In this document: in pieces, positions 2,348 to 58,513 of the stretch
Numbering within the stretch: the first letter of the stretch is position 1
Layout of the letters: each line of letters opens with the position of its first letter
Source: Paludisphaera soli
GTDB lineage: Bacteria; Planctomycetota; Planctomycetia; Isosphaerales; Isosphaeraceae
DNA length: 64,000 nt
Direction: 5' to 3'
Assembly (NCBI RefSeq): GCF_011064595.1
Contig: NZ_JAALJI010000005.1
Location: 248,001 to 312,000, forward strand
The notes under the pieces: generated by a model
Told to the model about the DNA's origin: nothing
The model's database searches: none
What the model saw: the letters and a program-made list of their open reading frames with translations, nothing else
Made by a program: the position numbers and the translations under genes

Positions 2348-4981
2348 TCACTCGGCGGCTTGCATCTTCACCAGGCCGAGGTCGATGTACTGTCCGCCCT
2401 GGGTCTGGCGGCAATGGACGGCCACGACGTTCTTGCCCGGCTTGAGGGCCTTGAGGGCCTCGGGGCTGATGCGCGTCGGGCGGTACTCGCTGGTGTAGCC
2501 GCTCAGGCGGGCGGCGGGGACGCCGTTGAACGAGACCTCGGCGTCCTCGTCGTGGTGGATGTACAGCCGCAGGTCGTCGCCCGCCTCGATCGCCGCCTGG
2601 GGGACGTCGATCTCGCGGCGGAGCCAGATCCGGGGGCCGTCCCAGACGGTGTTCACGGCCGCGCCGGGGGTGCCCCGGGTGCCGAAGCCGCTCTGGCCCT
2701 GCTTCCAGTCGCGGTCGTCGTAGTCGGCCGCGGTCCAGTTGCCCGGCGGGGGCTGGAGCACGTACTTCCACGTCGCCGGCGCGTCCTGCGCGGTGGGGAC
2801 GAGCGCGACCACCTCGCGGCGGACCGGCATGGGCGCCCACTCCTCGCCCAGGTCCTTGGCGTCGGCGCGGGCCAGCTCCAGGCAGCTCTCCCAGTAGGGG
2901 AGGCCGTCGGTCAGGGCGCGGATGAAGATCCCGCCGATGACCGGCCGGGCGCGGAAGCCGGCCTCCTTGGCGCTGTCGGTCCAGTACCAGTCGGTGAACG
3001 GCACCCGGTCGGGCGTGGCGTTCAGGAACTTGTGCATGGGGGCGATGAACTTGACGAACGTCGCCTTGTCGGGCGCCAGCGAGGCCGTCCAGGCGAGCCA
3101 GTCGCTCTTGGTGAACGCCTTGCGGTTGTCCAGCGGCAGGCCGTACTCGTTGAACTTCGTCGCGTAGAACTTCAGCTCCTTGGCGGCGACCTCGGGGGGG
3201 AAGACGTCCAGACCCAGGATCTTGTCCCAGATCAGGTTGTACTTCTGGCTCCAGCTCTCCTGGGGGTCGAACGTCAGGCGGTAGTGGTCGCCGGCGTCGG
3301 CCATCTCCATCCACTTCCGCGCCAGCTCTTTGGCCCGGTCGGTGTAGTGCCGGGCGACGTCGTCCTCGCCGCGCATCGAGGCCATGCGGCCGAAGGCGGC
3401 CATGCCGAGGATCGCCTTGACCGAGAGGTTGGCGTTGCGCGCCAGGTGGCCGGAGAAGTCGTCGGTGCAGAGCTGGTTCGCCGGGTCGAAGCCCTCGCGC
3501 TCGCAGTATTCGGCCCACTTGGTCAGCTCGGGCCAGTACTTGCCGGCGAAGTCGGCGTTCTTCTCGACGTGGGCGATGGCCGCGAGCATCAGCAGCATGT
3601 TGCCGCTCTCCTCGACGGGCATCTGGTTCTCCTCGGTCCGCTCGCCGCCGCCGTAGACCTGCCCGGTCGCGGCGGGGTACGTCCCCAGGTCGTGCGGGGC
3701 GAACGGCCAGCTCCAGCGCGGGGAGGCCGCGTAGTCGAGCACCGGCACCAGCGACGCCTTCGCCAGCACCGGGCTGAACAGGATCAGGTGCGGGAACTGC
3801 GGGTAGATCACGTCGACCGTGCCGATGCAGCCGTTCGACGAGTTCTCCTTCGAGAACCAGAGCGGCATCCCCCTGGCGTCGGCGACGAGGGTCGCCCCGG
3901 CGAGCGACTGCCGATGCGCCAGCGCGCCCATCTCGGCGTACTCCTTGCCGCCCAGCTCCGTCAGCACCTCGACGAACCGCTTGTCGAAGCCGTCGCAGTA
4001 CTGGTCGTAGACGGCCTTGCGCAGGTGGTGCTTGAGCAGGAGCGCCGTGAACGGCGGCTGCTTGCCCTTCTCGCGCGCCTTGTGCTTCCAGTAGCCGACG
4101 AGCCACTCGTCCATGTAGTCGATGGCGTAATCGTCGTCGTAGGCGATCAGGGCGAACGTCTCGGCGGCCTTGCCGGGCTCGACCGACCCCAGCGCCGTCA
4201 CCAGGGCGATCCCCGGCGCGCCGTCCTCGACCTTGCGGGGCATGGCGTCGTCGTCCTTGCCGGGGAGGCCGCCGTCCTTCGCGAAGGCCTCGGCCAGCGT
4301 CGCCCCGGGCGCGGCGGCGAGGATCGTGCGGGGCTGGCCGGAGGCCAGATACAGCGAGCCCCAGTCGATCCGCACGCCGTCCCCCCGGCGCTGGAGGGTC
4401 GGCTGCTCCTGCGAGCCGATCTTGACCGCCTTGACCGAGCCCAGCTCCTCGCGGCCCCAGACCACCGCCTGGTCGGGCGTGTTCACGGCCAGCAGTCCCG
4501 AAGCGCCGAGGAACACGGAGACCTCGTGCGACTTGTCGTCGCGGGCCTCGACCTTCCACGAGACGTACGTCACCGGGCTGGCCAGCATCTCCAGGTTGTA
4601 CGGCACCGCCAGGCCGAGGAACGTCAGCTCGACGTCCACCTCGTCCGACCGGAATTTGGCGATCGTCCGCGTCGGCCGGACCTCGATCGACGCCTGCTCC
4701 ATCGCCGGCAGGGCCTTGGGCTCGGCCCCCAGGATGCGGAGGGTCTTGCCGTCGACCCGGACCAGGCCGGTCAGCGGGTGGGGCGTCCCGGTCCAGTGCC
4801 GGGTGGTCGCGTCGGTCAGCTTGTCGGCGGGCGACCAGACGCTGAAATAAGGGTCGTGGGCGATCAAGGGGACCGAAGGCGGCCGAAAGGCCTTCGGCTC
4901 GTCCGCCCGCGCGGCGACCGCGCCGGCGAGCGTCGTCGCCAGCCCGGCGAAGGCCGCGAGGGCTCGGGAGTGGTTCTTCAT
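2348..4981 (-). CDS. Exported glutaminase A-like protein (DUF4965/DUF1793)
   Basis: An 877-residue exported protein of the GtaA family known from fungi and bacteria (fungal members hydrolyse glutamine). A signal peptide (about 1-26, ending AARADE) is followed by the DUF4964-like start ([22 protein letters not shown]), a beta-rich DUF5127-like region to about 350, a DUF4965-like region ([21 protein letters not shown]), and a helical DUF1793-like barrel with [21 protein letters not shown] and [18 protein letters not shown]. The last 110 residues look like a galactose-binding sandwich ([20 protein letters not shown]), as in many planctomycete hydrolases. The start is the ATG at 4981 where the signal peptide begins; upstream in-frame sequence is not protein-like. 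The substrate could be a glycan rather than glutamine. Confidence 0.85.
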
Positions 4982-9411: not shown

Positions 9412-10308
9412 ATGATCCACAAGTTCATCGCCGTCGCCGCAACGGTCGGGCTGGTCGGCGTCGCCGCCGCGGTCGGGGCCCAGGACAAGCCGGGGTCGGG
9501 CAAGGACCCGCAGCTCGGCCGGGCGTTCCGCGTGCCGTATCGGCTGACGGACACGAACCACTTCCTGGTCCGCGTCCGGATCAACGGCAAGGGGCCGTTC
9601 AACTTCCTGGTCGACTCCGGCGCCCCGGCGCTCTACGTGGCGACCGAGACCGCCGCCAAGATCGGCATCGCCCCGCCCGAGAAGGGCTTCTGGACGCCCA
9701 TCGACAGCCTGGAGATCGAGGGGGGCGCCCGGCTGGAGAAGGTCAAGGGCCGCGTGGAGGACCCGTTCCAGCTCGTTGGCATGAACGCCCTGGGGCTGCC
9801 GGGGGCGTCGATCGACGGCATCCTCGGGTTCACGATCCTCGCCCGGTTCAAGCTCGACATCGACCTGACGCGGGACCGGATGACCTGGACCCGGCTCGAC
9901 TTCGCCCCCCCCGATCCCCCCGTGCCGACCGACGAGGACCGCAAGAACCCGCCGGCCGAGATGCAGCTCATGAACGCCCTGGGGCCCGTCGCCAAGGGCC
10001 TGGCGTTCCTGATCGGCAAGCAGCCCGAGGAGCAGGTCGCGGCTCGGGGCTTCCTCGGCCTGGAGTGGGACGAGGCCGGCGACGCGAAGGCCGTACGGAT
10101 CGTCCGCGTCCTCCCCGAGTCCCCCGCCGCGGCGGCCGGGGTGGCCGTCGGCGATACGCTCGTCCGCATCGACGGGAAGCCCGTCGGCGGCCTCAGGTCG
10201 GCCCGCGAGGCCCTGGCCGGGCTCCGACAGGGGCGGGCGGTGGAGCTTGTGGTTCGGCGTGGGGACGAGGAGAAGACGCTCAAGGCCACGGCGGGCGAGG
10301 GGCTGTAG
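9412..10308 (+). CDS. Exported aspartyl protease-like protein with PDZ domain
   Basis: A 298-residue exported protein. A signal peptide (MIHKFIAVAATVGLVGVAAAVGA) is followed by a retropepsin-like domain: VRINGKGPFNFLVDSGAPALYV carries the D-S-G catalytic motif with Asp68, and DGILGFTILARFKLDIDLTRDRMTW is the conserved hydrophobic/glycine strand set of bacterial clan AA proteins. The C-terminus (about 215-298) is a PDZ domain: GFLGLEWDE, VLPESPAAAAGVAVGDTLVRIDGKPV. Such proteins would act in the periplasm, probably as homodimers. An ATG with weak Shine-Dalgarno (AAGG) is chosen because the signal peptide starts there. A diverged paralogue follows at 10516, separated by a repeat pair. Confidence 0.8.
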   Translation: MIHKFIAVAATVGLVGVAAAVGAQDKPGSGKDPQLGRAFRVPYRLTDTNHFLVRVRINGKGPFNFLVDSGAPALYVATETAAKIGIAPPEKGFWTPIDSLEIEGGARLEKVKGRVEDPFQLVGMNALGLPGASIDGILGFTILARFKLDIDLTRDRMTWTRLDFAPPDPPVPTDEDRKNPPAEMQLMNALGPVAKGLAFLIGKQPEEQVAARGFLGLEWDEAGDAKAVRIVRVLPESPAAAAGVAVGDTLVRIDGKPVGGLRSAREALAGLRQGRAVELVVRRGDEEKTLKATAGEGL

Positions 10309-10341
10309 GCTTTAGCGGAAGAAGAACAGGCCGTCGCGAAT

Positions 10342-10487
10342 CGTCCTTCCCCCCTGGTGGGGGAAGGTGGCCGGAGGCCGGATGAGGGGGAGACGAGCAC
10401 GAACACCGTCGCGTCCTCGCATCGTCCGCCTTGATGGCCCCCCTCATCGACCGCTTCGCGATCCTTCCCCCACCAGGGGGGAAGGGA
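10342..10487. repeat. Inverted pair of dispersed repeats (copies B and C)
   Basis: Copy B (10342-10390, CGTCCTTCCCCCCTGGTGGG onward) and copy C (about 10437-10487) face each other with a 46-base spacer containing GTCCGCCTTGATGGCCCC. The arrangement and spacer match copies F/G at 32883-33028, so the whole 145-base paired unit is itself repeated. It sits between the two aspartyl protease-like genes and can form strong stems. Confidence 0.75.
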
Positions 10488-10515
10488 AGATTATCGACCG
10501 GGAAGGCAGGTTCTC

Positions 10516-11937: not shown

Positions 11938-12717
11938 ATGACCCGCGAACGCCCGCCGATCCAGGTCCCCGCGACGCCGGAGTACGTGCTGGCGACGCTC
12001 CAGGACCAGCATCGGCACCTGGCCGGGATCTACGAAGCCGATGCGGACGCCGTCCTCACGGCCGAAATGTCCATCATTCACTGGTGCGCGGTCATGGACC
12101 TGGGGGACGACTGGCGGCGGCTCTCCTGGGCTCTGGACGACGCTTGGAAGCTCGGCCGGTCGCGGGCCGAGTGGAAGGCCGTCCTCGAACCGACGAGCAA
12201 GCGCACCCTCGGCGGGCTCTGCGCGTTCATCGCCGCCTCGGGCGCGACGCGGCCCGTGATCGAGCCCTTCGGCTTCCTCGGCGTCCGCCCCTGCCGCGCC
12301 GCGGGGGCGTTCCTGGCCGTCCGCTCGGCCCTCCGCGAGGCCGACGCGATCGCCCCCGAGACGCCCCTGGGACCTTTCCTCCAACGGCACGTCCGCGCCT
12401 TCGGCTTCTCGCCGATCCCATTCCTCGCCCCAGGGGCGCTGCCGCCCCTGAGCGTGGACCTGCCGCCGGGAGGAGCGCCCCTGGCGGGCTTCGCCCTTGG
12501 ATCCCTGCTCGCCTCCGCCGTCGGCTACGCCGGCTTCAGGCTCACCGCGATCCCGCTCTTCCAGCCGATCCTGATCATCTCCGCCACGCTGTTCTTGATG
12601 TCATTCCTCGCCCTCGGCAGCGTCCTGCAGAGTCATCGGCCCAACTATGAACTCGGCGACCTGCGGACGTTCAAGGACCTCGCCCGGGCGCTCGCCGCGG
12701 GAGCGGGGACGAACTGA
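11938..12717 (+). CDS. Hypothetical protein with C-terminal membrane segments
   Basis: A 259-residue protein. The first 170 residues are soluble and mostly helical (EYVLATLQDQHRHLAGIYEADADAVLTAEMS, HWCAVMDLGDDWRRLSWALDDAWK). The C-terminal part carries two likely membrane helices (GFALGSLLASAVGYAGFRLTAIPLF and ILIISATLFLMSFLALGSVL). It has no signal peptide, so it may be a C-terminally anchored cytoplasmic protein. It begins with GGAGG-like sequence 12-15 bases upstream. I do not recognise the family. It lies at the end of a putative operon and is followed directly by the repeat-bounded DUF559 unit. Confidence 0.6.
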   Translation: MTRERPPIQVPATPEYVLATLQDQHRHLAGIYEADADAVLTAEMSIIHWCAVMDLGDDWRRLSWALDDAWKLGRSRAEWKAVLEPTSKRTLGGLCAFIAASGATRPVIEPFGFLGVRPCRAAGAFLAVRSALREADAIAPETPLGPFLQRHVRAFGFSPIPFLAPGALPPLSVDLPPGGAPLAGFALGSLLASAVGYAGFRLTAIPLFQPILIISATLFLMSFLALGSVLQSHRPNYELGDLRTFKDLARALAAGAGTN

Positions 12718-12724
12718 CGCCAAG

Positions 12725-12789
12725 CGTCCTTCTCCCCTGGTGGGAGAAGGTGGCCCGAAGGGCCGGATGAGGGGGACCATCAAGGCGAC
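12725..12789 (+). repeat. Left 65-bp terminal inverted repeat of DUF559 unit (copy D)
   Basis: This copy of the dispersed repeat family matches the reverse complement of 13244-13308 over 65 bases with three mismatches by eye. It includes the hairpin CTTCTCCCC...GAGAAG, the GGCCCGAAGGGCC hairpin and ATGAGGGGG, and extends into ATCAAGGCGAC beyond the common core. Confidence 0.85.
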
Positions 12790-12808
12790 GTCGCCAGGAG
12801 CCGAGGCC

Positions 12809-13207
12809 ATGCCTGACCACACCGATCGAGTTCAGGACGATCCGGGCCTTATCGAGGGCCGGATCTATCCCGCCCGGCGGCTCCGTCGCGAGATGACCAA
12901 GCCTGAGTTAAAGCTTTGGCTCGCCCTGCGAGGTCGTCGCTGCGCCGGGCTCAAGTTCCGCCGTCAAGTGCCGATGGGCCCGTTCTTCCTGGACTTCTTC
13001 GAAGCGGCCCACAAGCTGGCCGTCGAGGTCGACGGGCGCAGCCACGACGACCGCGGCGCGTACGATCGCGCCCGCCAGCTTGAACTGGAACGGCGAGGCT
13101 TGACCGTGCTGCGGATTTCGAATGACGAGGTGCTGGAGGATGTCGAGAGGGTCGTCGACGGGATCGTCGCCTTGACTCACCGCTTGGCTCAAGGCGGAGG
13201 GAGATAG
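12809..13207 (+). CDS. DUF559 (Vsr-like) endonuclease-fold protein
   Basis: A 132-residue protein of the DUF559 family, which has a restriction-endonuclease-like fold related to Vsr. The sequence has the family's marks: ARRLRREMTKPELKLWLALRGRR, GLKFRRQVPMGPFFLDFF (the F-R-R-Q...DFF core strands), LAVEVDGRSH (E-x-D metal and catalytic region) and GLTVLRISNDEVLEDVERVV (the C-terminal strand and helix). Full length for the family. It is enclosed by two 65-base inverted repeats of a family scattered through the window, an arrangement suggesting the gene and repeats move together. It may nick or cut DNA at the repeats by analogy with REP-associated enzymes; that is inference. Confidence 0.85.
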   Translation: MPDHTDRVQDDPGLIEGRIYPARRLRREMTKPELKLWLALRGRRCAGLKFRRQVPMGPFFLDFFEAAHKLAVEVDGRSHDDRGAYDRARQLELERRGLTVLRISNDEVLEDVERVVDGIVALTHRLAQGGGR

Positions 13208-13243
13208 CGCGGGCATCACCCCCGCTGCGTCGGCCGCCTGCTG

Positions 13244-13308
13244 GTCGCCTTGGTGATCCCCCTCATCCGGCCCTGCGGGCCACCTTCTCCCACCAGGGGA
13301 GAAGGACG
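13244..13308 (-). repeat. Right 65-bp terminal inverted repeat of DUF559 unit (copy E)
   Basis: Inverted partner of 12725-12789 with three mismatches. Read on the reverse strand it also shows the GCCGTCGCGAATCGTCC leader shared with copies B and F. It ends 15 bases before the stop of the cysteine desulfurase gene, so it may also serve as terminator for that gene. Confidence 0.85.
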
Positions 13309-13323
13309 ATTCGCGACGGCATC

Positions 13324-14478
13324 TCACCGCGAAAGCCACTTCACCGCGGCGGCGACGTGGGTGACGGCCTGGTCGACCTCGTCCTCGGTGGTGAAGGCGC
13401 CGAGGCTGAAGCGGACGGACGAGCGCAGGCAATCGGCGGGGACGCCCATCGCGACGAGGGTCGGCGAGGGCTGCGTGGAGCCGCTCGCGCAGGCCGAGCC
13501 GAGCGAGACGGCCACGCCGGCCAGGTCGAGCTGCATGAGGAGCGCGTCGCCGTCGACCCGGAGGAAGCCCAGGTTCACCGTCTGCGGCAGCCTCTTCGAC
13601 GGGTCGACCGGGCCGTTGGGGAGGATGCGGTCGGGGCCGACCGCGGCGTAAAGGCCGTCGATCAGGCGTCGGGTGAGCCGTCGCCAGAGTGAAGTCCGGG
13701 CCTGGTATTCGCGTCGCCAGAGGTCGAGCGCCGTCGCGAAGCCCACGGCCAGGGGGACGGCGATCGTCCCCGGACGTCGGCCCTGCTGCTGGCCGCCGCC
13801 GTAGAGGCGGGGCGTGAGCCGGACGCCCCGGCGCACCAGGAGCACGCCCGAGCCGGCGGGGCCGTGGAACTTGTGGCCGCTGGCCGCCAGCGTGGCGACC
13901 CCCAGCGCGGCGAAGTCCACCGGGATCCGCCCCACGGCCTGCACCGCGTCGGTGTGGACCGGCACGCCCCGCGCGGCGGCGAGGTCCGCCAGCTTCGCGA
14001 CGGGCTGGATCGCGCCGGTCTCGTTGTTGGCGAGCATCAACGTCGCCAGCCTCGTCCGCTCGTAGAAGAGGGCCGCCATCCGGTCGACGTCGACGACCCC
14101 CTCGGCGTCCACCGGCGCGACGTCGGCGACGAAGCCCCGGGCCTCCAGGTGGGCGACGAACTCGTTGACCGCCGGGTGCTCGATCGGCGAGGTCGCGATC
14201 CGGCCCGGCGGCGAGGTCCCGTCGACCGACAGGCCGAACACGGCCAGGTTGTTGGACTCGGTCCCGCCGGACGTGAAGACGACCTCGTCCGGCCGCGCGC
14301 CGAGGATCTCGGCGACGAGTTCCGTCGCCTCCTCGAACGCCCGACGCGCCCGACGCCCGGCCGAGTGCCGGCTCTCGGCGTTGCCGGCGACCAGGAAGTA
14401 CGGGCTCATCGCCTCCAGCACCCGGGGGTCCAGGGCCGTGGTCGCGTTGTGGTCCAGGTAGATCGTGGTGGCGTTCAT
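13324..14478 (-). CDS. Cysteine desulfurase (NifS/IscS family)
   Basis: A 384-residue PLP-dependent enzyme that takes sulfur from cysteine for Fe-S clusters or tRNA thiolation. Visible marks: YLDHNATT start; SGGTESNN phosphate-binding loop (70-77); H101 in IEHPAV stacking on PLP; D177 in HTDAVQ; the PLP lysine K203 in ASGHKFHGPAG; and the persulfide cysteine C330 in SLGSACASGSTQPS. The long loop after the Cys (ASGSTQPSPTL) fits group I (IscS/NifS-like). Length matches the family. No iscU or other Fe-S gene is next to it, so it appears to be an isolated desulfurase; a small membrane-protein gene lies just upstream on the same strand. Confidence 0.93.
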   Translation of the reverse strand: MNATTIYLDHNATTALDPRVLEAMSPYFLVAGNAESRHSAGRRARRAFEEATELVAEILGARPDEVVFTSGGTESNNLAVFGLSVDGTSPPGRIATSPIEHPAVNEFVAHLEARGFVADVAPVDAEGVVDVDRMAALFYERTRLATLMLANNETGAIQPVAKLADLAAARGVPVHTDAVQAVGRIPVDFAALGVATLAASGHKFHGPAGSGVLLVRRGVRLTPRLYGGGQQQGRRPGTIAVPLAVGFATALDLWRREYQARTSLWRRLTRRLIDGLYAAVGPDRILPNGPVDPSKRLPQTVNLGFLRVDGDALLMQLDLAGVAVSLGSACASGSTQPSPTLVAMGVPADCLRSSVRFSLGAFTTEDEVDQAVTHVAAAVKWLSR

Positions 14479-32353: not shown

Positions 32354-32882
32354 TCGCCGTAACGAGCCATCGAGGATGGCTTTAGGCTTGTTGCGTCCGG
32401 CCGGCGATTGGCTTCGTTCGACCACTTTCCCCATGCTTTCTCCGCACATCGGACGCTTCATCCGCCCTACTCCCCAAGCTCCCGACCGCCCCTCGCGATT
32501 TGGCTTCGTTCGCGCCGCCCCGGAAACGAACCCATCGGGCGCAAGCGATTTCCAGAATAAGGGTTGCGGCGTTCGTTCGGGGCTTGAAATTGGGTTCGTT
32601 CGGCGTGTCTTCCGCGAGTCCTCGATCCTCGTCGTCGGGGCGGCCGCCGTCGACGCGTCGTGGATCGAGAGTCCACCAACTTACACGGTGACGCCGATCC
32701 GCAGATTGCGGCGGCGATGTCTCGCGATTCCCACGCCGGGCCCCCGTGGGCTCTCCTGGCGCGTACCTCCGACCTTTCCCCGGTTCTTCCCGCCCGGCGC
32801 GGGGAGGAGGCTCTGAGGGCCAGATGGGGGGAAAACGAGCACGAAAACCGGCGGAGAATCGGCCAGGTCGGCCGTCGCGAAT

Positions 32883-33028
32883 CGTCCTTCTCCCCTCGTG
32901 GGAGAAGGTGCCGCGCAGCGGCGGATGAGGGGGCGGGCGCGAGAAGCCGTCGCCTCCTCGCTCCGTCCGCCTTGAGGATCCCCCTCATCGACCGCTCCGC
33001 GGCCCTTCCCCCACCGAGGGAGAAGGGA
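32883..33028. repeat. Inverted pair of dispersed repeats (copies F and G)
   Basis: Copy F (32883-32933) begins CGTCCTTCTCCCCTCGTGGG; copy G (about 32979-33028) is inverted. The 45-base spacer contains GTCCGCCTTGAGGATCCCC and matches the spacer of copies B/C at 10391-10436. Both pairs begin with GCCGTCGCGAATCGTCCTT. The unit looks like a miniature inverted-repeat element. Confidence 0.75.
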
Positions 33029-46179: not shown

Positions 46180-46229
46180 CTCCCCCGATCCGGCCCGTCG
46201 GGCCATTTTCCCCCGCCCGGCGGGAAGGG
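46180..46229 (-). repeat. Dispersed hairpin repeat, copy H
   Basis: A moderately diverged copy of the CTCATCCGGCC family with both stems present. It begins about 70 bases after the methyltransferase stop and may terminate that gene. Confidence 0.65.
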
Positions 46230-46308
46230 CGTCGGGGCCCCGCTTCGCCCGCGCAAAACGTCTTGCGAGGTTTGCACTTAACGGGGGTTGAAAGGGAGGC
46301 CGTCGGCG

Positions 46309-58372: not shown

Positions 58373-58467
58373 CGTCTGGGACTCCGGCTCAGAAGGATAT
58401 CCGATGGCCGGGGCGTCGAGGGCTGGAGGTTGCGGGAGCGACGAACGGCCCTCGTGTTCGGCTTCCC

Positions 58468-58513
58468 GCTCATCCGGCTCTGCGGGCCGCCTTCCCCCGC
58501 GAGGGGGAAGGGG
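58468..58513 (-). repeat. Dispersed hairpin repeat, copy I
   Basis: CTCATCCGGCTCTGCGGGCC followed by CCTTCCCCC-GCGA-GGGGGAAGG. It stands 15 bases beyond the stop of the GH5-like gene, in inverse orientation, and so could end that transcript. Confidence 0.7.

Follow-up and report, generated by a model that had tools for sequence, protein, structure and literature searches.

A DUF559 nuclease gene between BoxC/PIT-type inverted repeats in Paludisphaera soli, a candidate minimal mobile element with putative gene-less derivatives

BoxC or potential intrastrand triplex (PIT) repeats have been on record since the 1990s without an explained origin. DUF559 proteins form what we take to be a large, little-characterised nuclease family, which includes YcjD from E. 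coli and VsrA from Caulobacter. We know of no end repeats or non-autonomous copies in homing endonucleases, and of no earlier tie between the Vsr/EDxHD fold and REP-like elements. The excerpted text of Holder et al. 2015 (PMC4666352) describes BoxC/PIT/TM as a palindromic repeat of E. coli K-12 MG1655 that forms an intrastrand triplex in vitro. According to the same excerpts, PIT elements are intergenic in E. coli, partly arranged in inverted pairs, and present in more than 260 genomes. The excerpts tie them to no transposons, phages, plasmids or class of neighbouring gene, report that promoter and terminator activity is absent in E. coli, and describe BoxC sites as unstable in this species. 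For E. coli K-12, 23 TM (BoxC) sites have been reported.

We analysed a stretch of 64,000 nucleotides from Paludisphaera soli, referred to as the window, in which an earlier note made from the sequence alone had described a single DUF559 gene enclosed by 65-bp inverted repeats with three mismatches. This description was borne out. Direct alignment of positions 12725–12789 and 13244–13308 gave inverted copies that differ at 3 of 65 positions (BLAST of arm against arm in the window, E = 5.7e-22), and a profile search assigned the gene to PF04480 with 109.2 bits against a curated cut-off of 20.6. A repeat search found the inverted match to be longer than 65 bp, covering 12703–12789 and 13244–13330 (87 nt, 86%). 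The unit is composed as follows.

12725–12789, + strand: left arm, consisting of a hairpin CCTTCTCCC-loop-GGGAGAAGG, a small hairpin GGCCC-GAA-GGGCC, the gene-facing tail GGATGAGGGGG and the sub-terminal sequence CCATCAAGGCGAC
12809–13207, + strand: DUF559 (PF04480) endonuclease gene, 132 aa from ATG, with a predicted fold of the Vsr/EDxHD type
13244–13308, − strand: right arm, an inverted copy of the left arm with 3/65 mismatches

DNA folding of the left arm gave z = −2.67. The tail GGATGAGGGGG of the window arms is G-rich and directed at the gene. Translation likely starts at the ATG at 12809, yielding 132 aa; the 186-aa frame from 12647, which crosses the left arm, is probably over-long. 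The part of this frame upstream of the start (12647–12808) translates the arm as ..PSPLVGEGGPKGRMRG.., and arm-derived peptides of this kind may be annotation artefacts elsewhere too.

The repeat had also been reported about nine times in the window, twice as a gene-less inverted pair, and both statements were confirmed. A within-window BLAST recovered nine arm copies at E < 1e-5 (at 2276, 10335, 10414, 12703, 13244, 32876, 32954, 46182 and 58464), and both pairs are present in tail-to-tail arrangement. Outside the DUF559 unit the copies are distributed as listed here.

2276–2324, − strand: solo arm (BLAST)
10330–10498, no strand: gene-less tail-to-tail pair with arms at 10335–10391 (+) and 10414–10485 (−), the right arm with sub-terminal CCATCAAGGCGGAC
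32871–33028, no strand: gene-less tail-to-tail pair with arms at 32876–32933 (+) and 32954–33026 (−)
46182–46254, − strand: solo arm, degenerate (BLAST)
58464–58511, − strand: solo arm (BLAST)

The host genome (7.97 Mb in 197 contigs) contains at least 84 arm matches (40 candidates scored of 170). Among the matches listed, neighbouring arms are oriented tail-to-tail in 32 cases, hairpin-to-hairpin in one and in the same direction in 12. The tail-to-tail spacers among these matches measure 28–38 bp in 19 pairs and 61–67 bp in nine; the rest are 84, 98, 136 and 453 bp long. The 453-bp spacer is that of the DUF559 unit and the sole one above 136 bp among the matches listed. Twenty gene-less pairs were fetched and read out of 31 listed for the host genome. 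A block of the CCATCAAGGCGGAC type with 0–3 changes is located just inside one tail in 19 of these 20 pairs; in the remaining one (L204) a single arm was read. The window unit has the core CCATCAAGGCG of this block at its left end, and a version of it that differs by two changes at its right. At the other end, all six long-spacer pairs fetched carry a block of the GAAGACGAGCACGGAGACCGTC type, which is common, with changes, to the DUF559 units L002, L003, L020 and L045. Because sub-terminal blocks are common to both, the kinship between gene-less pairs and the ends of gene units goes beyond the bare motif. The two ends of the window unit are of the same sub-terminal type; those gene-less pairs of which both ends were read combine the two types. 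The clustered spacer lengths and the blocks common with DUF559 units support the earlier suggestion that the gene-less pairs are non-autonomous derivatives of such units, and this is our best reading of these sequences.

At many loci the arm has the order pyrimidine half, loop, purine half, short spacer and purine tail, as exemplified by locus L102 (CCCTCTCCC-TCGAT-GGGAGAGGG-TTA-GGGTGAGGG), and TM-like motifs were observed at units of many phyla. Judged by this sequence architecture, the DUF559 arms appear to be repeats of the BoxC, PIT or TM type. The earlier note had left this type unrecognised. In a class II triplex motif, the purine half has to be followed by a third purine segment that is its mirror image. 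In 95 arms the purine half is asymmetric; their tails were nearer to the mirror in 43 cases, nearer to a direct copy in 18 and tied in 34 (p = 0.0019), compared with 28, 22 and 45 in a shuffled-tail control. The window arm tail GGATGAGGG is one position off the mirror of GGGAGAAGG, but is separated from it by a small hairpin, an extra feature that follows the purine half in arms of the window's genus.

By base composition, the G-rich strand points toward the gene at 101 of 118 loci (16 do not, one is tied). Exceptions to the tail-inward orientation include loci with nested pairs. Further exceptions are L104, L117, L118, L146 and L151, whose titles name Gastranaerophilales, Melainabacteria, 'Cyanobacteria bacterium SIG32' and Scatousia; their arms are reversed, tail outward, at both ends. 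One exact PIT pattern was present in 21 of 35 DUF559-positive and in 18 of 211 DUF559-negative Planctomycetota genomes (Fisher p = 3.5e-11, uncorrected for phylogeny); it has no match among the arms of the host genome. Genome G139 has 319 matches to the pattern, and a tandem array at G139:C1:569456-570562 consists of motifs in the same orientation, mostly about 173 bp apart. A terminator role of the arms was considered and set aside on the lack of terminator activity of PIT in E. coli, as reported in the excerpts of PMC4666352.

The host genome contains two full-length DUF559 genes with arm pairs and a broken third one at a contig end, also with arms; a partial DUF559 match within a 350-aa frame has none. 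A DUF559 match was found in 33 of 59 genomes of relatives and, at E ≤ 1e-20, in 35 of the 246 Planctomycetota genomes of a phylum sample. The short DUF559 genes read in these two sets are mostly bounded by arms, the sequence of which differs between lineages. To score a locus we used an inverted match with a score of at least 18 between the 400-bp flanks of the gene. In a sample from many phyla (genome_contigs; 80 loci fetched, 72 testable), inverted arms were found at 61 of 72 loci, or 58 of 69 after removal of three duplicates, a sample that is biased to one DUF559 subtype and may lean to arm-flanked ones, because its query alignment (A2) is narrow and was built from four proteins that all came from arm-flanked loci. 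Control positions shifted by +1500 and −1500 bp had inverted arms in 0 of 61 and 1 of 59 cases, respectively. A phylum sample of short DUF559 genes drawn with Pfam gave 22 passes among 25 testable loci (28 fetched). HNH genes gave 0/24 testable (30 fetched) and Vsr genes 1/25 (30 fetched), the single case being a long match unlike the DUF559 arm repeat; partial DUF559 domains in frames of at least 339 aa gave 0/11. Comparisons in direct orientation (28/72) and between mismatched loci (26/72) are not true nulls, because the arms of different loci resemble each other, whereas shifted positions and other gene families are.

Pooling the short DUF559 loci of Planctomycetota and other phyla, 118 of 143 passed, 23 failed and two were too short. 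This count leaves out duplicates (L077, L080, L112), the plasmid-collection loci L157–L164, copies not fetched, split or contig-end copies (L003/L004, L023/L046, L025), genes with an inner stop (L022, L043), as well as L021, L047, L048, the second copy in L193 and partial DUF559 domains in long frames. Among the rows left out, L003, L046 and L023 have arms, L022, L025 and L047 have none, and L043 and L021 show a distant or weak match. Eight loci chosen from the plasmid collection reached a score of 18 in three cases (L160 from Neisseria, L161 from Sinorhizobium, L164 from Synechocystis); L157, L158, L159, L162 and L163, from E. coli, Klebsiella, Azospirillum and a second Synechocystis, stayed below that score, several of them with an arm on one side only. 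A search with one query protein at E 1e-5 returned three phage records and 45 records of the plasmid collection, part of which are mislabelled chromosomes; the elements look mainly chromosomal.

The earlier note had asked whether the repeats flank DUF559 genes above chance. Against shifted positions and other nuclease genes they do, at 118 of 143 pooled loci. It had named two kinds of counter-evidence. DUF559 copies without repeats exist, most sampled short copies having the repeats (118/143) but the plasmid-collection loci only in three of eight cases. Repeats equally common at unrelated genes were not seen for nuclease genes, with HNH at 0/24 and Vsr at 1/25.

Two loci differ from the usual arrangement. 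At L072 (G160:C1, 8715764-8719057) the DUF559 gene is located inside inverted repeats of about 350 bp, 86% alike, with several hairpins and unlike the usual arms. At L159 in Klebsiella pneumoniae (positions ~3001–3430), the interval between cysP and the gene of a Dyp-type peroxidase contains a broken DUF559 gene that lacks annotation, with PIT-type arms after it.

Arm similarity rises with protein similarity. Between genomes the Spearman coefficient was 0.485 for 118 loci, a value reached in 0 of 500 permutations, and shuffling the arms inside each of ten multi-unit genomes gave an equal fit in 29 of 1000 trials. Pairs from the same genome with unlike proteins (score 0.3–0.4, 20 pairs) had a mean arm similarity of 0.34, compared with 0.86 for pairs with like proteins (>0.7, six pairs), the latter in part owing to recent duplication. 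In genome G019, for example, the proteins of L010/L037 and those of L041/L042 have different arm families. On sequence comparison, arm type tracks nuclease subfamily, a specificity indicated by correlation.

Comparison of empty sites in close relatives, which had been proposed as a check, revealed presence and absence between congeners. With flanks only about 76–94% identical, gain can hardly be told from loss or decay, and no target duplication could be defined. At one site two genes of G001 enclose a complete unit; G000 and G005 have a terminator-like hairpin only at the orthologous place. In G002 this place is taken by a gene-less pair whose second arm is degenerate, in G004 by an arm-like hairpin beside a rearranged neighbourhood; the two flanks are separated from each other in G003. 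Among these divergent congeners, the G001 site showed no recognisable target-site duplication. At the site orthologous to that of the window unit, G001 lacks the unit and retains an arm-like scrap. The gene-less pair at 10342–10487 is absent in G005, where 44 bp lie between the blocks matching window positions 10307 and 10552.

Units occur several per genome and at different places. Recent copies in G265 and G244 have arms at both ends, and in the paralogue pairs L041/L042 and L187/L190 the gene is common and the arm positions differ. The unit ends are approximate, because homology between L181 and L193 reaches about 130 bp past the left arm. A comparison of L185 (G287:C10) with L200 (G310:C237) placed the unit between two related, diverged segments, with the flanks closer in G310; given these related flanking segments, a simple insertion does not explain the L185 site.

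In E. coli, ycjD is located between sapF and fabI. Of 5426 genomes of this species, 3361 contain a stretch that covers 80% or more of the query. At the sapF–fabI loci L157 and L158 (cf. L165) a BoxC-like arm lies directly 3' of ycjD; the 5' side has an unrelated hairpin. E. coli was rejected as a source of clean empty sites: the three ycjD-less strains read carry efflux genes between sapF and fabI (cf. the excerpts of PMC12817139).

The repeats also occur without a detectable gene for the enzyme. In the Planctomycetota sample, 13 of the 18 genomes with the PIT pattern and without DUF559 at E 1e-20 had no match even at E 0.001. DUF559-free at E 0.001 are G196 (183 pattern matches, 89% complete), G049 (28, 99%), G062 (28, 91%) and G221 (13, 98%); G175 and G246 have broken DUF559 pieces. 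Within the window's own genus, no DUF559 match was found in the genome of G004, which gave 78 matches to the L020 query, mostly arm-sized among those listed. Given such repeat-rich genomes, the repeats persist, or spread, in the absence of a detectable gene. Either the repeat outlives the enzyme, as REPs are known to outlast RAYTs, or another agent can spread it.

We modeled the structure of the window protein with a pLDDT of 84.5. The best fold match was 3hrl, a DUF559 protein from Neisseria (NGO0050), with Z = 15.5 and an rmsd of 1.3 for 94 residues, followed by the catalytic domain of I-Bth0305I (3r3p; Z = 12.2, rmsd 2.4, 94 residues). Sequence profiles also recover both entries. Vsr (Z = 9.8, rmsd 2.2, 98 residues) was tied with RAP-type mitoribosomal proteins; mitoribosomal or RAP-type proteins had Z = 9.3–9.8 in the fold list, into which we read no function. 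TnsA and Hjc were weaker (Z ~7). The membership of YcjD in the PD-(D/E)XK superfamily was known already (PMC1189080, in excerpt). Of 118 homologues, at least 116 retain each of the residues E87, D116, E127, D129, H133 and D140, and at least 117 retain each of the four residues E87, D116, H133 and D140 (positions counted in the 186-aa frame that begins at 12647; minus 54 for the 132-aa protein). We read these last four as the E, D, H and D of the EDxHD motif. With residues this close to invariant, an active nuclease is probably retained. The modeled fold, of the Vsr/EDxHD homing-endonuclease type, is suggestive of an enzyme that cuts DNA and leaves the rest to host repair, not of one that transfers strands. 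To our knowledge, enzymes of this fold are known to cut and not to join, and for this reason we favour a homing-like process of nuclease plus repair over classical transposition.

Based on the association of arms with gene ends across phyla, the matching of arm and nuclease subfamily, the common end and sub-terminal sequences and the presence and absence between congeners, we propose that the 584-bp unit is a minimal self-propagating element composed of a DUF559 nuclease and BoxC/PIT ends, with the gene-less pairs as its non-autonomous forms. We put the probability of this reading at roughly two in three. From the observations we infer recognition, cutting, copying, excision and insertion by DUF559, which could proceed as follows. 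The unit, with DUF559 as its sole gene, as a rule has the hairpin outward and the tail toward the gene at each end. The nuclease would recognise the folded end, either in single-stranded DNA at replication forks or in a cruciform, and nick or break the DNA at the arms. Host repair or replication restart would then copy the unit into new intergenic sites. A gene-less pair could be copied likewise with DUF559 acting in trans, and solo arms would be remnants. The earlier idea of a minimal mobile unit with derivatives is upheld by the flanking, the derivatives and the presence and absence between congeners; the transposase role is not, the fold being that of a Vsr/EDxHD nuclease. A broader proposition is that the BoxC/PIT repeats of many phyla are the ends and the dead or non-autonomous copies of DUF559 elements that recognise a triplex or hairpin end, as an independently evolved counterpart of REP/RAYT. 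We regard the case for it as evenly balanced.

The strongest alternative reverses the order of events: BoxC/PIT pairs of other origin would be older, a free-standing DUF559 homing gene would have invaded between the arms, and the gene-less pairs would be its empty targets. The fold match to the homing endonuclease I-Bth0305I, the repeat-rich genomes without DUF559, and the arms and some sub-terminal sequence common to units and gene-less pairs are all in line with such targets. This order of events does not readily account for the tracking of nuclease subfamily by arm type inside genomes, and the clustered lengths of the gene-less pairs argue for pairs that were copied as units. Moreover, the window unit is not simply a gene inserted into a local pair, because both its ends are of the same sub-terminal type and the pairs have one of each. 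We consider this alternative unlikely.

Another enzyme, for instance a RAYT (Y1 transposase) or an IS transposase, could move the arms with DUF559 as a hitch-hiker. REP/RAYT is the known precedent, and the host genome has two Y1_Tnp genes, which with 31.9 and 24.1 bits are weak matches although they exceed the cut-off of the family. The RAYT version is weakened by L007, one of these loci, where the palindrome (CCACGGGTTC..GAACCCGTGG) differs from the DUF559 arms; at L006 the top-scoring inverted match is of a kind other than PIT arms. The presence of DUF559 in phylum after phylum and the tracking of its subfamilies by arm type would also be unexpected for a passenger, so that we regard this explanation as highly improbable. 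L007 (G000:C154, 171009-171206), a RAYT-like gene with palindromes of its own, represents a second REP-like system in the host genome. Similarly improbable to us is an immobile unit in which a resident Vsr-like repair nuclease is helped by flanking hairpins through insulation, transcription ends or autoregulation. A role in host DNA-damage biology has been described for Caulobacter VsrA, a DUF559 protein reported to be needed for a DNA-damage response in cells without a cytosine methyltransferase (PMC12907096, in excerpt), and ycjD is reported as highly conserved in the E. coli phylogroups A, B1 and C (PMC12817139, in excerpt); both speak for a resident function. A regulatory pairing is opposed by the absence of promoter and terminator activity of PIT in E. 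coli, as given in the excerpts of PMC4666352, and by several units per genome at varied places, empty sites and gene-less copies.

If a DUF559 nuclease propagates its own BoxC/PIT-bounded unit, as we propose, this would provide a candidate partner enzyme and origin for a widespread, long-orphaned repeat, and a candidate substrate and function for the DUF559 family. It would also bear on the instability of BoxC sites in E. coli reported in the excerpts of PMC4666352. Within the open-licence PMC literature (subscription papers and preprints being outside the scope), we found no link of DUF559, YcjD or COG2852 with BoxC, PIT or flanking repeats. The repeat and the protein family have each been described before; their pairing appears to be new within the literature covered, with an enzyme unrelated to RAYT and a repeat of another type.

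Compared with the described systems, the DUF559 unit combines features of several. The three-part arm of BoxC/PIT/TM is the same as at many DUF559 loci. The excerpts of PMC4666352 name no class of neighbouring gene, whereas here this type of motif bounds DUF559 genes, and the arms of the window's genus differ by the added small hairpin between purine half and tail. With Vsr and the EDxHD homing endonuclease I-Bth0305I the unit shares the nuclease fold and the near-invariant E, D, H and D; unlike a homing endonuclease it has terminal repeats and no intron, and 132 aa leave no room for a separate DNA-binding domain. The short gene-less inverted-repeat units that share their ends with a larger unit are reminiscent of MITEs, from which they differ in that no target duplication was recognised here and the partner is not a DDE transposase. 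CGTC-tagged REPs are a known class, and one feature that favours the RAYT rival is the presence of CGTC immediately beyond the hairpin in four of the nine window arms. In a wider sample of 212 arms there was no such excess: GTAG and CGTC were found at the hairpin 2 and 3 times, respectively, versus 3 and 2 times at 50 nt further out, with a script that may miss the outer hairpin of long arms. The comparison with REP/RAYT made in the earlier note holds by analogy: a small enzyme gene is located between inverted palindromic repeats, and many gene-less copies accompany it in the genome. It does not extend to the enzyme, since the enclosed gene belongs to PF04480 and has a predicted Vsr/EDxHD fold, unrelated to that of a Y1/HUH tyrosine transposase. 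If our reading is true, it adds an enzyme fold to the REP-like elements.
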